This document shows positions 24,734-29,494 of a DNA stretch of 64,000 nt, piece after piece. The translations under genes and the position numbers were made by a program. The notes under the pieces are model-generated. The model was not told the origin of the DNA. It saw only the letters and a list, made by a program, of their open reading frames with translations, and made no database searches. The stretch comes from Flavobacterium piscisymbiosum (lineage in GTDB: Bacteria > Bacteroidota > Bacteroidia > Flavobacteriales > Flavobacteriaceae), in the NCBI RefSeq assembly GCF_020905295.1, contig NZ_JAJJMM010000001.1:124001-188000 (forward strand). Direction: 5' to 3'. How positions within the stretch are numbered: the stretch's first letter is position 1; each line of letters starts with the position of its first letter.

Positions 24734-24764
24734 CAAAGATAGATTTAATTAGAGAATGTGCCAA
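24734..24764 (-). promoter_or_regulatory. Promoter of the ABC-F gene
   Basis: Minus strand TTG (24764-24762), 20 bp, TATCTTTG (24741-24734), about 65 bp before the start codon. The -33 TTG lies inside the left arm of the long inverted repeat. Confidence 0.6.
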
Positions 24765-24912
24765 TTAGAAAATTAGATAATTTCAGAATTAGAAAATGTG
24801 GTAATTTGATAATGGGATAATGTAAAACGATGGTTACTAGAAAATTATGTAATTCCTTTTAAAATAGCAGCATTTCATTTTCTAATTTTCTAATTGGCAC
24901 ATTTTCTAATTA
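24746..24912. repeat. 32-bp inverted repeat pair between ABC-F and response regulator genes
   Basis: Arms 24746-24777 and 24881-24912 are reverse complements with one mismatch in 32 (core AATGTGCCAATTAG). The 103 bp between them hold further partial copies such as AGAATTAGAAAATGTGG. The whole gap 24671-24993 contains this, the ABC-F promoter on its left and the regulator box on its right, but no gene. Confidence 0.8.
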
Positions 24913-24918
24913 GAGAAA

Positions 24919-24953
24919 TTCCTAAATGTTTCCAGAAACAAAGCTTTATTTTG
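24919..24953 (+). promoter_or_regulatory. Putative response-regulator box A and promoter
   Basis: Direct repeat TTCCTAA-N4-TTCCAGA (TTCC at 24919 and 24930, 11-bp period), with TTATTTTG placed so that its TTTG is at the same offset (31-34) as in box B. A second possible -7 (TACATTTG) lies at 24966-24973. Located 56 bp before the response regulator start. Confidence 0.6.
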
Positions 24954-24993
24954 AGCCCATATTCTTACATTTGAATTACATAACAAACGAAAC

Positions 24994-25665
24994 ATGAAAA
25001 TCTTAATAATAGAAGATGAAGCTGGTTTGCGTGAAGTGGTACAGCAATCACTTGAAAAAGAAAAATATATAGTCGAAACCGCGCATGATTACATTTCAGG
25101 TTCTGACAAACTTGGATCGTATGACTATGATTGTATACTCATTGATATTATGCTTCCAAACGGCAGTGGGCTAGACTTACTGAAAGAAATAAAAAGACAA
25201 AAGAAGCAAAGTGCCGTTATTATCATTTCGGCAAAAGATGCTGTTGATGACAAAGTGAAAGGCTTAGATCTGGGAGCTGATGATTATTTGAGCAAACCTT
25301 TTCATTTATCTGAATTACATGCCCGAATCAAATCGGCGATTAGAAGAAATAATCATAACGGAGATAATCTAATCGTTTGGAAAAATACTACTCTTTCTCC
25401 AGAGCAACGAACAGTTTCTATTGATGGCAAAGAATTAGTTTTAAACCGAAAAGAATTTGATTTACTCTATTATTTTATCATTAATCCAAATCGCTTAATA
25501 AACAAAACTGCTATTGCAGAATATGTTTGGGGCGATCATACAGATCAGGCCGACAATCTGGACTTTGTATATTCGCAGATTAAAAATTTACGCAAAAAAC
25601 TAAAAGAAAGTAATGCCGAAATTGATATTCAGGCAGTTTATGGTATTGGATACAAAATGAGTTAA
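24994..25665 (+). CDS. OmpR-family response regulator
   Basis: A 223-residue protein. The receiver domain (1-115) has the acidic pair Glu7/Asp8, phospho-acceptor Asp51 in LIDIMLPNGSG, and a conserved Lys in LSKPF at about 101. A winged-helix DNA-binding domain follows (about 130-222; NRKEFDLLYYFIINPNRLINK and VYGIGYKM). Its stop overlaps the kinase start by one base. OmpR-type regulators bind direct repeats one helical turn apart, which fits the TTCC boxes upstream of this gene and of two PepSY-like genes. Confidence 0.93.
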   Translation: MKILIIEDEAGLREVVQQSLEKEKYIVETAHDYISGSDKLGSYDYDCILIDIMLPNGSGLDLLKEIKRQKKQSAVIIISAKDAVDDKVKGLDLGADDYLSKPFHLSELHARIKSAIRRNNHNGDNLIVWKNTTLSPEQRTVSIDGKELVLNRKEFDLLYYFIINPNRLINKTAIAEYVWGDHTDQADNLDFVYSQIKNLRKKLKESNAEIDIQAVYGIGYKMS

Positions 25666-26936
25666 TGAAATTACAAAATTATACCCTTCGTTATCTTGCA
25701 ATAACATTGCTAGTAGTGATCCCAATTTGGGCAGGAATCTTTTATGCCCATATTCTGGACGAAGTGCATGATAATATTGATGATGATTTGAAAAACTCAA
25801 AAATCATAATCATGAGACATGTGTTTACAGATAAGAAAATCCTGAATTCACCTGAATTTGGAATTAATAAATTTACCATAAAACCGCTGCCAAAAGGTAA
25901 TTACTCTCATAAAGACAAGCTTTTTACTTCGTCTGAATTCATGGAATACGATAATGAAGATGAACCTATCCGGGTTTTAAAAACAATTTTTAATGATGAT
26001 AACGGAAACTCTTATGAACTAATTATAAAAGCATCAATAGTCGAAGAAGATGACCTTCTGGCAGATTTACTCTTGTCCTTAATTGCGTTATATGTTATGC
26101 TGGTAATTAGTATATTGGCTGTCAACCATTTGCTTTTAAAGAAGATATGGAAATCTTTTTATATCATTCTGGAAAACATTAAACAAATAAAACTTGGAAC
26201 AGGCAGCAAATTAGTCCCTGTTAACTCCTCTATTGATGAATTTAATGTTTTAGCAAGCGAAGTAGAAACAATGCTTAGCCGTAATGAAACCATCTATTCA
26301 AGTCAGAAACAATTTATAGAAAATGCATCTCATGAGCTGCAGACTCCTCTGGCGATAAGTATTAATAAATTAGAATTATTTGCAGAAAACTCAACCCTTT
26401 CAGAAGAACAAATGATCGAAATTGGCAAGATAACCGATACATTAAACAGATTAACACGATTGAACAAATCTTTGCTAATGCTGTCAAAAATCGAAAACCA
26501 ACAATATCCGGAAGAAGAAGAGATCAACTTTAATAAACTTATCTCAATATTAACAGAGGACTATTCTGATCTTGCCGATTTTAAAAAAGTAAAAATTACT
26601 ATCATCGAAAACGATACTTTACATTTTACTATGAACAAAGGATTGGCAATTGCATTAATCAGTAATTTATTAAAAAATGCTTTGATTCATAATCATCCCG
26701 AAGGTTTTGTCAATTTTACAATAAATAAAAACAATATTTCAATCTCTAATAGTGGAAGTAATTATCCATTAAATCCAGAACTTATCTTCAATAGATTTTA
26801 CCGTAATACTACAACAAATGAATCTACTGGTTTAGGTCTTCCTCTTGTAAAATCGATCATTGCCAATTATTCGGTTACTATTGAATATCTATTTAATGAC
26901 GGACATACCTTCAAAATTAATTTTCCTAAAAAGTAG
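25665..26936 (+). CDS. Membrane histidine kinase
   Basis: A 423-residue sensor kinase. Transmembrane segments at about 9-30 and 132-157 enclose an extracytoplasmic sensor domain of about 100 residues rich in charged residues (Asp, Glu, Lys, His). The H-box ASHELQTPLAI gives His223; N-box LISNLLKNALIHN and the GTGLGL-like STGLGLPLVKSI complete the ATPase domain. Coupled to the regulator by a 1-base ATG/TAA overlap. The PepSY-like secreted proteins next to it may report on, or change, its signal. Confidence 0.92.
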   Translation: MKLQNYTLRYLAITLLVVIPIWAGIFYAHILDEVHDNIDDDLKNSKIIIMRHVFTDKKILNSPEFGINKFTIKPLPKGNYSHKDKLFTSSEFMEYDNEDEPIRVLKTIFNDDNGNSYELIIKASIVEEDDLLADLLLSLIALYVMLVISILAVNHLLLKKIWKSFYIILENIKQIKLGTGSKLVPVNSSIDEFNVLASEVETMLSRNETIYSSQKQFIENASHELQTPLAISINKLELFAENSTLSEEQMIEIGKITDTLNRLTRLNKSLLMLSKIENQQYPEEEEINFNKLISILTEDYSDLADFKKVKITIIENDTLHFTMNKGLAIALISNLLKNALIHNHPEGFVNFTINKNNISISNSGSNYPLNPELIFNRFYRNTTTNESTGLGLPLVKSIIANYSVTIEYLFNDGHTFKINFPKK

Positions 26937-26952
26937 TCTTTTTATTATATTT

Positions 26953-26987
26953 TTCCTAATTGTTTCCAAATTCAGGTTATAGGTTTG
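26953..26987 (+). promoter_or_regulatory. Putative response-regulator box B and promoter
   Basis: TTCC at 26953 and 26964 (11-bp period) followed by AAATTCA and TAGGTTTG at 26980-26987, a good -7 element. Located 24 bp before the first PepSY-like gene. The half-sites and the spacing to the -7 are nearly identical to box C. Confidence 0.7.
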
Positions 26988-27010
26988 TATCAAATTAAAA
27001 ACTTATAATT

Positions 27011-27448
27011 ATGAAAACGAAATTAAAACTGGCCGCATGCCTGCTTGTAGGATTGACTTTTTCTGCAAACGCTCAAAAAACAGTTATAACAAAAACAGAC
27101 CTGCCTGCAAATGCTCAAACTTTTCTAAAAACCCATTTTGCAGGACAAGAGCCTTCTTATATAATTAAGGACAAAGAAACTTTCGCTACAGATTACAAAG
27201 TTCAGTTTACGAACAACATCGAAGTAGAATTTGATGCAAAAGGAAATTGGGAAGAAGTTGACGGAAACCACACTTCAATTCCTGTGGCCATAGTTCCTAA
27301 AACAATTGCTTCTTATATAAAAACAAATTTTGCTAATACATCAGTAACCAAAATAAGCAAAGATTACAAAGGTTATGAAGTAGATATAAATAATGGCTTA
27401 GAATTAGAGTTTAACTCTAAAGGCAGTTTTTTAAGAATCGACAATTAA
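27011..27448 (+). CDS. PepSY-like (DUF2874) secreted protein 1
   Basis: A 145-residue periplasmic protein with a signal peptide ending SANAQ. One PepSY-like unit of two halves: LPANAQTFLKTHF ... VEFDAKGNWEEVDGN, then IPVAIVPKTIASYIKTNF ... LELEFNSKGSFLRID. This BLIP-like fold is common in Bacteroidetes near two-component systems. It starts 24 bp after box B and is co-transcribed with the next gene (28 bp gap, no terminator). It is most similar to the fourth paralogue at 29051. Confidence 0.85.
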   Translation: MKTKLKLAACLLVGLTFSANAQKTVITKTDLPANAQTFLKTHFAGQEPSYIIKDKETFATDYKVQFTNNIEVEFDAKGNWEEVDGNHTSIPVAIVPKTIASYIKTNFANTSVTKISKDYKGYEVDINNGLELEFNSKGSFLRIDN

Positions 27449-27476
27449 AACAATCATTTATTAAATTATTACAATC

Positions 27477-27935
27477 ATGAAAAAAATAATTTTAACAGGC
27501 TTTATTGCCTTATCACTTTTATTCTCCACAACATCCTGCGATAACGATGATGATCACGAATCTGTAATTAATGCCAGCGAGTTACCAGCATCGGCTAGTG
27601 CATTTGTTACAACTTATTTTCCAGGTGTTAATTACCAAATAATAAAAAAACAGAATCAAGCTGATGCAGATGGATCTATTTATGATGTTTACCTCACAAA
27701 TGGTTTCGAGATTGATTTTGATGCTAATGGAAATTGGGTTGATATTGACGGAAATCATCAGGCGATTCCTGCAGAATTAATTCCAGAGAAAATTCAAACT
27801 TACATAACAGTGAATTATCCTAATCAATTTGTGATCGCTATTGACAATGAAAAAACTTTTATTGAAATTGATCTTTCTAACAACTTGGAATTAATATTTG
27901 ATACTCAGGGAAATTTTGTACGCATAGATCATTAA
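27477..27935 (+). CDS. PepSY-like (DUF2874) lipoprotein 2
   Basis: A 152-residue protein with a lipobox (Thr-Thr-Ser-Cys) and an acidic Asp-rich tether (DNDDDH). One PepSY-like unit: FEIDFDANGNWVDIDGN and IPAELIPEKIQTYITVNYP. Second gene of the box B operon, ended by a terminator at 27949. The acidic linker and Asp-rich core suggest divalent cation contacts, but this is inference only. Confidence 0.85.
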   Translation: MKKIILTGFIALSLLFSTTSCDNDDDHESVINASELPASASAFVTTYFPGVNYQIIKKQNQADADGSIYDVYLTNGFEIDFDANGNWVDIDGNHQAIPAELIPEKIQTYITVNYPNQFVIAIDNEKTFIEIDLSNNLELIFDTQGNFVRIDH

Positions 27936-27948
27936 ATATCTAAACACC

Positions 27949-27981
27949 AAAAGCTCCAAATATTTAAATTGGGGCTTTTTT
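27949..27981 (+). terminator. Terminator after PepSY-like gene 2
   Basis: AAAAGCTCCAA / TTGGGGCTTTTTT, with G-U pairs and a T tail. Confidence 0.8.
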
Positions 27982-28008
27982 ATTTTTAAATTTAAAAAAA
28001 TAAGAAAA

Positions 28009-28043
28009 TTCCTAAATGTTTCCAAATTCACATTATAATATTG
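28009..28043 (+). promoter_or_regulatory. Putative response-regulator box C and promoter
   Basis: TTCC at 28009 and 28020 (11-bp period), then AAATTCA and TAATATTG at 28036-28043. The distance from first TTCC to -7 is 27 bp, identical to box B. Located 40 bp before PepSY-like gene 3. Confidence 0.7.
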
Positions 28044-28082: not shown

Positions 28083-28940
28083 ATGAAAAAGACATTCTTA
28101 ACAAGTTTGATGGCATTATCAATTTTACTATCTACAGTTTCTTGCGACAGCAATGACGATGCAACTGCTGATAAAACTGTAATCGAACCAACAACACTTC
28201 CAACTACAGCAAAAACATTTACAGAAACTTACTTTCCTAACGCAGTATATAAAGCTGTAAAACTAAATATCCCAAGTTACAACGGAACGGTTTATGATGT
28301 TTCTCTTGCAAATGGTTTTGAAATTGATTTTGATGCTAACGGAAACTGGACAGAAATTGATGGAGGAAACAACCCAATTCCTACTGCTTTGATTCCGGAA
28401 AAAATCAATGCTTATATAGCTGCAAATTATCCTGGTTTGTTTGTAGTTCAAATTGAAAACGAAAAAACAAAATATGATGTAGAACTTTCTAACGACTTAG
28501 ATTTAGTTTTTACGATGCAGGGAGATTTTGTTAGAATTGATCACGACGGAGATAATCATAATGAAGTTGTAGTAAACCCAACTACTTTACCTGCAGCAGC
28601 AACAACATTAATAAGTACGCATTTTCCTGATGCAGTTATCAGATTGGTAGAGAAAAAAAATATTGCAGCTCTAAATGGTGCTATCTACGATGTTTCTCTT
28701 TCAAATGGTTTCGAAATTGATTTTGATGCGAACGGAAACTGGACCGAGATTGACGGAGGCCGCCTGGCTATTCCAAATGCTTTAGTACCAGAAAAAATCG
28801 CTGCTTATGTAACTGCAAATTATCCTGCTTTACTATTAACAGCTATCGACAAAGAAAGAACTTATTATGATGTAGAACTTTCTAATGATTTGGATTTAGT
28901 TTTTGATCTTCAGGGAAATTTTCTGAGAATTGATAAATAA
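28083..28940 (+). CDS. Two-domain PepSY-like (DUF2874) lipoprotein 3
   Basis: A 285-residue lipoprotein (Thr-Val-Ser-Cys) with two complete PepSY-like units in tandem. Each has DVSLxNGFEIDFDANGNW, then IDGG and xPEKIxAYxxANYP, then the DVELSNDLDLVF ending. The internal duplication is clear at the protein level, the second unit starting near residue 160 after a DHDGDNHNE linker. Preceded by box C and followed by its own terminator at 28962, so it is a separate transcript of the same regulon. Confidence 0.87.
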   Translation: MKKTFLTSLMALSILLSTVSCDSNDDATADKTVIEPTTLPTTAKTFTETYFPNAVYKAVKLNIPSYNGTVYDVSLANGFEIDFDANGNWTEIDGGNNPIPTALIPEKINAYIAANYPGLFVVQIENEKTKYDVELSNDLDLVFTMQGDFVRIDHDGDNHNEVVVNPTTLPAAATTLISTHFPDAVIRLVEKKNIAALNGAIYDVSLSNGFEIDFDANGNWTEIDGGRLAIPNALVPEKIAAYVTANYPALLLTAIDKERTYYDVELSNDLDLVFDLQGNFLRIDK

Positions 28941-29050: not shown

Positions 29051-29494
29051 ATGAGAACGAAATTAAACTTGGTAGTCTGCCTAATTGCAGGATTACTATT
29101 TGGACTTTCTGCAAATGCACAAAAAACCGTTATTAAAAAAGAAGCTTTACCCGCAAATGCACAAACTTTTTTAAAGGCTCACTTTGGATCTAAAAAGCCC
29201 AGCTATATATTAGAAGATAAAGAAATTCTTTCTACAGAATACAAAGTGCAGTTTGATAATAAAATTGAAATAGAATTTGACAAAAAAGGAAACTGGAAAG
29301 AAGTTGATGGTAATGGAGATAAAATTCCTTCTTCTATTATCCCGAAAAAAATCGCTTCGTATGTAAAAACCAACTTTCGTAAAGAGAAAATAACCAAAAT
29401 CGAGATAGGAACTTTTGGCTATGAAGCTAAACTAACAAACGGTTTAGAATTAAAATTTAACCTAAAAGGAGATTTTACTAAAATTGATAAGTAA
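29051..29494 (+). CDS. PepSY-like (DUF2874) secreted protein 4
   Basis: A 147-residue paralogue of the gene at 27011 with the same signal peptide pattern (SANAQKTVI) and the same LPANAQTFLKxHF and ASYxKTNF segments. It is more basic than the others (many Lys: KLTNGLELKFNLKGDFTKIDK). Upstream there is only a degenerate match to the TTCC box (TTTC at 28993 and 29005, 12-bp apart), so its membership of the regulon is uncertain. Terminator at 29514. Confidence 0.85.
   Translation: MRTKLNLVVCLIAGLLFGLSANAQKTVIKKEALPANAQTFLKAHFGSKKPSYILEDKEILSTEYKVQFDNKIEIEFDKKGNWKEVDGNGDKIPSSIIPKKIASYVKTNFRKEKITKIEIGTFGYEAKLTNGLELKFNLKGDFTKIDK

Follow-up and report, generated by a model that had tools for sequence, protein, structure and literature searches.

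A conserved tandem TTCC repeat as the predicted operator of an OmpR-family regulator and its PepSY-like genes in Flavobacterium

The stretch of DNA analysed here (the window) comprises 64,000 nucleotides of contig NZ_JAJJMM010000001.1 of Flavobacterium piscisymbiosum, from a genome of 6.49 Mb whose nearest named relatives are Flavobacterium species. It encodes a two-component system, made up of an OmpR/PhoB-family response regulator and a histidine kinase, followed by four PepSY-like genes. Our subject is a repeated sequence, the TTCC box, that lies upstream of three of these six genes and is a candidate operator of the regulator (Table 1). The Response_reg, Trans_reg_C, HisKA and HATPase_c domains of the regulator and kinase all scored above their Pfam cut-offs, as did PF11396 in all four PepSY-like genes, twice in gene 3. 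The N-terminus encoded by PepSY-like gene 4 resembles, by eye, that of a secreted protein. PepSY-like gene 2 has no box of its own and begins 28 bp downstream of gene 1; the two genes probably share one operon.

Table 1. Features of the two-component and PepSY-like locus (positions are those of the window)
Feature	Position	Strand	Sequence	Description
Box A	24919..24933	+	TTCCTAAATGTTTCC	Precedes the response regulator gene; its second repeat unit extends to ~24939
-7 element, regulator gene	24946..24953	+	TTATTTTG	Imperfect; chosen by the sequence-only reading
Perfect -7 element, regulator gene	24966..24973	+	TACATTTG	20 bp downstream of TTATTTTG
Response regulator	24994..25665	+		OmpR/PhoB family, Response_reg + Trans_reg_C, 223 aa
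Codons of S194 and Q195	25573..25578	+		Recognition helix; sister clade mostly N, H
Histidine kinase	25665..26936	+		HisKA + HATPase_c, 423 aa; start overlaps the regulator stop codon
Box B	26953..26967	+	TTCCTAATTGTTTCC	Upstream of PepSY-like gene 1
-7 element, PepSY-like gene 1	26980..26987	+	TAGGTTTG	
PepSY-like gene 1	27011..27448	+		PF11396, 145 aa; signal-peptide-like N-terminus by eye
PepSY-like gene 2	27477..27935	+		PF11396, 152 aa; lipobox-like N-terminus by eye
Box C	28009..28023	+	TTCCTAAATGTTTCC	Upstream of PepSY-like gene 3
-7 element, PepSY-like gene 3	28036..28043	+	TAATATTG	
PepSY-like gene 3	28083..28940	+		Two PF11396 domains, 285 aa; lipobox-like N-terminus by eye
PepSY-like gene 4	29051..29494	+		PF11396, 147 aa

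A sequence-only reading of this locus had proposed that TTCC-N7-TTCC is an 11-bp direct repeat set at a common distance from a -7 element, and that the OmpR-family regulator activates through it its own gene and the PepSY-like genes. The motif was present at all three places on the + strand, and WTTG followed the first TTCC by 31 bp in each case (at 24950, 26984 and 28040). The 11-bp period also held, but the repeat unit proved to be longer than TTCC: the alignment of sites from related genomes (clade A, defined below) gave an imperfect tandem of ≈ 22 bp, TTCCYAAWTST-TTCCaRAWTC. Boxes B and C, said to agree almost throughout, matched at 29 of 35 positions up to the end of the -7 element; however, the boxes that share an identical 15-mer are A and C, box B being one base off.

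Taken by itself, TTCC-N7-TTCC only slightly exceeded chance in the window (6 matches versus 2.53 expected; 3 of 100 shuffles reached 6). The 15-mer TTCCTAAWTGTTTCC (TTCCTAAwTGTTTCC) has exactly three copies in the genome, which are boxes A, B and C. When up to two mismatches were allowed, it gave 68 hits, including the three boxes; the reversed control gave 67, which leaves no excess in the genome outside the locus. The four hits with one mismatch all lie within open frames of 208–585 codons (stop to stop). On these two grounds, a wide regulon in this genome is not supported.

In a search of 398 genomes of the genus, a close regulator turned up in 70 (E to 1e-70). These, together with three loci from another family of the order (L204–L206), made up the 73 regulators compared. 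Their tree split with full support into 49 regulators (clade A), which are 58–100% identical to that of the window, and 24 (the sister clade). The box lies upstream of both the regulator and PepSY-like gene 1 in 10/10 named Flavobacterium loci, eight of which are also counted in the 73-locus set. In clade A, the 150 bp preceding the regulator contain it in 32/49 loci (one of these, L205, has a non-consensus site; little upstream sequence was available at L176, 136 bp, and L197, 2 bp), and the 150 bp preceding PepSY open reading frames (ORFs) contain it in 46/83 cases. The chance expectation, obtained by first-order Markov resampling, was 0.0025 per region.

A boxed PepSY ORF is carried by 42 of the 44 clade-A loci that have any PepSY ORF in the fetched stretch; the two exceptions, L174 and L176, are one base off, with TTAC for TTCC. 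The remaining five clade-A genomes have a boxed PepSY gene as well. In G157 and G302 it is unlinked from the regulator, in G298 it is on a separate contig (the regulator contig ends ≈ 160 bp past the kinase), and in L178 and L179 the boxed PepSY genes are diverged, yet score above the PF11396 cut-off. Altogether, 47/49 clade-A genomes have a PF11396 gene with the box in front (within 220 bp upstream; anywhere in the genome for the five). Clade-A relatives that keep the locus have thus retained the box. The self-regulation and the PepSY control that had been proposed side by side are both conserved, but not equally: autoregulation is less conserved than PepSY control (32/49 versus 47/49).

The box also stayed with PepSY genes that have moved. 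Other DNA lies between the kinase and PepSY in L154, L166, L169, L172 and L173, and the box stays beside the PepSY gene; in L204–L206, the PepSY gene and its box are located upstream of the regulator. Since displaced and unlinked PepSY genes keep the box, it goes with the PepSY gene and not with the kinase end. It was retained down to ≈ 58–59% regulator identity and in another family of the order, even as the flanking sequence diverged. In four loci (L150, L151, L153 and L157), additional PepSY_like genes immediately precede the regulator, and these have no box themselves.

Across the genus, the strict pattern of box plus -7 element occurred in 28/398 genomes: 26 of 70 that have the regulator and 2 of 328 that lack it, both times inside long ORFs in the latter; the reversed control occurred in 0/398. 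PF11396 is present in 163 genus genomes, 102 of which have no regulator, and none of these 102 has the strict box-promoter pattern. This result does not support the idea that the box is a general property of PepSY genes. Upstream of paralogous regulators, neither this box nor that of the sister clade (below) was found (0/19 regions, in a few of which the 150 bp were measured from a match start inside the gene).

The 24 sister-clade regulators are 51–56% identical to that of the window. In these genomes, the TTCC box was absent upstream of both the regulator (0/24) and PepSY ORFs (0/12), and another repeat with an 11-bp period, AGAWTT-N5-AGAWTT, precedes the regulator in 13/24 loci and PepSY ORFs in 5/12 cases. 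This second repeat was found in 0/49 regulator regions and 0/83 PepSY ORF regions of clade A. A genome-wide scan of the 24 sister genomes gave 35 sites (41 overlapping rows merged by hand) versus 5 control hits, which were left unmerged, and 30 of the sites lie within 6 kb of the regulator. A looser form of the repeat is present in 23/24 loci, as seen in a scan run without a control. None of the 398 genus genomes has regulators of both clades above threshold. Judging from the aligned units, the two repeats seem to have an ARAWT core in common, TTCC having become AAT, with a register that is one base off relative to the -7 element.

Within the regulator, 8 of 223 positions differ consistently between the clades (≥ 90% in each), and six of the eight follow residue 120. 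Two of the eight are neighbours in the recognition helix, S194N and Q195H. In PmrA (BasR), a regulator of the same domain family, the DNA-binding domains are described as forming a head-to-tail dimer on a box of tandem imperfect repeats, with V192 touching bases and Asn196 reading a base in the DNA structure (PMC4660055). By that description, PmrA differs from the present system in half-site and targets; its Asn196 is equivalent to N198 here, which is kept in both clades. In our alignment to PmrA, Q195 stood opposite H193 and S194 fell in a two-residue gap, and a gapless alignment to 1kgs suggests that S194 faces V192. A link between the operator difference and the recognition-helix change is suggestive only. 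Tentatively, and with somewhat less than even probability, the orthologous regulator swapped its operator within the genus (TTCCYAAWTST-TTCCaRAWTC to AATAGAWTTnn-AATAGAWTT) through S194N and Q195H, with the 11-bp period, the rough distance to the -7 element and the PepSY targets left unchanged. If true, this would be a natural specificity switch in the OmpR family, in which the protein and all its operators changed together. With their different boxes, the two clades offer a ready-made natural experiment on how DNA specificity changes in this family.

At clade-A sites, the box is followed after ≈ 6 bp by TANNNTTG. Among the 87 sites collected (a table in which row L154 +4175 is spurious and row L205 -61 is non-consensus), the offset of the -7 element is 31 bp in 70, 30 bp in 10 and 29 bp in 1, and 6 have no -7 element. 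In front of PepSY genes, ≈ 6 bp separate the end of the box from the -7 element downstream, and the box overlies the place of the -33 element. A TTG at -33 (15–24 bp upstream of -7) is absent from 52 of the 81 sites that have a -7 element and present in 29. The common 31-bp spacing, although found at all three boxes of the window, is doubtful at the regulator's own promoter, where a perfect -7 element stands 20 bp downstream of the one first chosen. At this far position, the perfect TANNTTTG is present in 23/32 boxed regulator promoters and in 0/46 boxed PepSY promoters. The near position has it in 3/32 and 13/46, respectively, and a looser -7 element in 26/32 and 37/46. Three relatives without a box at the regulator promoter (L153, L204 and L206) retain TATATTTGA there. 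Given the perfect element 20 bp further on, the box may act from an upstream position at the regulator gene, or two promoters may exist.

These data favour the earlier proposal of one OmpR-family regulator that reads the repeat both before its own gene and before the PepSY genes: the conservation of the box, its presence at displaced and unlinked PepSY genes, the absence of its strict pattern from the 102 PF11396 genomes without the regulator and its difference, along with that of the recognition helix, in the sister clade all point the same way. The repeat is very probably the operator of the locus's own regulator, which would control the PepSY-like genes and itself. In the mechanism we propose, the kinase would sense an envelope signal and phosphorylate the regulator, a dimer of which would bind the two 11-bp units in a head-to-tail arrangement. 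At PepSY promoters, the dimer would most likely recruit RNA polymerase and so turn on the PepSY-like proteins, both the secreted ones and the lipoproteins. The box before the regulator gene would provide feedback, perhaps from a position some two helical turns farther upstream. We infer binding, phosphorylation and activation by the regulator, activation in particular from the position of the box and from the 52/81 sites without a TTG at -33, which fits an activator-dependent promoter. The PepSY-like proteins presumably act in the envelope, possibly in the handling of cations, metal or haem, or in feedback on the kinase. The system appears to be of an ordinary kind, unusually well supported by comparative evidence, and the result is a concrete predicted operator with a tiny conserved regulon, a testable handle on PF11396 proteins.

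Several points weigh against this interpretation. No TTCC-N7-TTCC was found upstream of PepSY-like gene 4, and second genes of PepSY operons have no box. The strict box pattern is absent from 17/49 clade-A regulator promoters, so autoregulation is not universal, and it is ambiguous which -7 element serves the regulator promoter. G010, one of the 26 genomes with the pattern, belongs to the sister clade and has its match inside an ORF; the strict pattern therefore recovers 25/46 clade-A genus genomes, and with this insensitivity its absence elsewhere is weaker than apparent. The Fisher test of the co-occurrence of regulator and box (p ≈ 8e-20) ignores the relatedness of the genomes. The differences in box and recognition helix fall on one long branch, so they count as one event and may be a coincidence. 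Both the binding and the direction of control are predictions from comparative sequence evidence, and the site could also be that of a repressor.

Repression by the same regulator from the same operator, with the dimer covering the -33 region and blocking RNA polymerase until a signal relieves it, is unlikely. It would agree with a box that overlaps the -33 position and ends near the -7 element, and with a TTG 15–24 bp upstream of -7 in 29/81 sites, but the 52/81 sites without such a TTG are as expected of activator-dependent promoters. Activation is also the usual action of OmpR/PhoB-family regulators at tandem sites of this sort, which speaks against repression. The regulator BqsR, for one, is described as activating from TTAAG-N6-TTAAG (PMC4682146).

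Less likely still, the box could be owned by another transcription factor, the two-component genes being merely co-regulated neighbours. The genome has many more regulators of the family (29 matches, these being the 29 scored of 74 candidates), and the assignment of the box to this regulator is itself predicted. Against this, the strict pattern turned up only twice in the 328 genomes without the regulator, each time inside a long ORF, none of the 19 paralogue regions carries the box, and the box and this regulator's recognition helix differ together between the clades. Chance, or recent copying of PepSY genes along with their upstream regions, has next to no probability as the reason why the boxes are alike: the PepSY genes of the locus are paralogues, and copying may therefore account for boxes B and C, but the same box stands before the regulator gene, which is no PepSY paralogue, it persists where the flanks have diverged, the 102 PF11396 genomes without the regulator show no strict pattern, and duplication as the sole explanation is already contradicted by conservation.

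A looser scan of the 49 clade-A genomes gave 51 sites versus 2 control hits (G323 has two copies of the locus, probably two ends of one assembly, and its sites count twice). Forty of these lie within 6 kb of the regulator, three precede PepSY genes elsewhere and four precede one family of outer-membrane-like proteins. Seven of the 11 off-locus sites were inspected, all but G421, G412 at 2875612, G115 and G088. Other off-locus boxed genes in relatives encode a Porin_O_P protein and a DUF2490 protein, and in G033 (L211:3283-6501) the box stands before a CzcA/CusA-like RND pump operon that begins with a small gene. In some relatives, another envelope gene thus also carries the box, and the off-locus sites point to envelope proteins. 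No haem gene was seen beside the off-locus sites inspected in relatives, which do not include the four sites named above, and degenerate sites would escape such a scan. Metal efflux, considered as the function because of the G033 operon, was not upheld: among nine homologues of the first gene of the G033 operon, in 7/19 genomes, only that of G033 is boxed.

The outer-membrane-like family (HAEPLYxDLxRDLGA motif; L270–L273, L178) has no Pfam match and is boxed in 4/7 genomes with a homologue (19 searched); in G146, the boxed gene comes directly after the kinase. G301 and G245 (L107, L115) have an identical box-promoter before a DUF2490 gene, and their own regulator promoter is boxless.

Among the literature matches listed, none describes this operator or a Flavobacterium PepSY regulon. 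As far as its published description goes, HaeSR (PG0719/PG0720) of Porphyromonas gingivalis is like this locus in being a Bacteroidota kinase–regulator pair with a linked PF11396 gene. It lies beside the lipoprotein PG0717, which has four DUF2874 (= PF11396) domains, and with the PG0717 cluster is reported to control haem genes; HaeR bound its own promoter in an electrophoretic mobility shift assay (PMC3764172). HaeR sites are reported before 57 genes, 17 of them for transport (PMC3764172), in contrast to the three exact box sites here. The terms "direct repeat" and "consensus" are absent from the main text of that paper.

BqsRS/CarRS of Pseudomonas aeruginosa, as described, has in common with this locus a tandem repeat operator with an 11-bp period, TTAAG-N6-TTAAG, from which BqsR activates. 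One unit of the BqsR site is reported also to serve RNA polymerase, and the kinase to sense periplasmic Fe2+ (PMC4682146, PMC12666569). The half-site here, TTCCnAAWTC, is unlike that of BqsR, for which the same papers report hundreds of potential sites. Ferrous iron sensing through ExxE was considered for the present kinase, which has EFME at residue 91, but the motif is not conserved at one place: ExxE occurs there in 25/48 kinases that are > 40% identical and in 25 of the 64 examined, which are those that passed the length filters. An acidic stretch (like FMEYDNEDEP) at kinase residues ~91–100, in the probable sensor region, occurs in many clade-A kinases and in none of the sister-clade rows. 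As to the PF11396 proteins, a structure paper suggests that they inhibit partner proteins (PMC2954215), and a list of iron-regulated genes includes the PepSY-like genes BT0922-0923 (PMC10434189).

Next to the regulator promoter, a dispersed element at 24746–24912 ends 6 bp before box A. Its 36-bp inverted arms (24746–24781 and 24877–24912) are 94% complementary, and arm-like stretches recur at ~18 more places across the genome (another 26 rows, 84–96% identity). Since the arms recur genome-wide, the sequence adjoining the regulator promoter is like a repetitive extragenic palindromic (REP) sequence or a miniature inverted-repeat transposable element (MITE).

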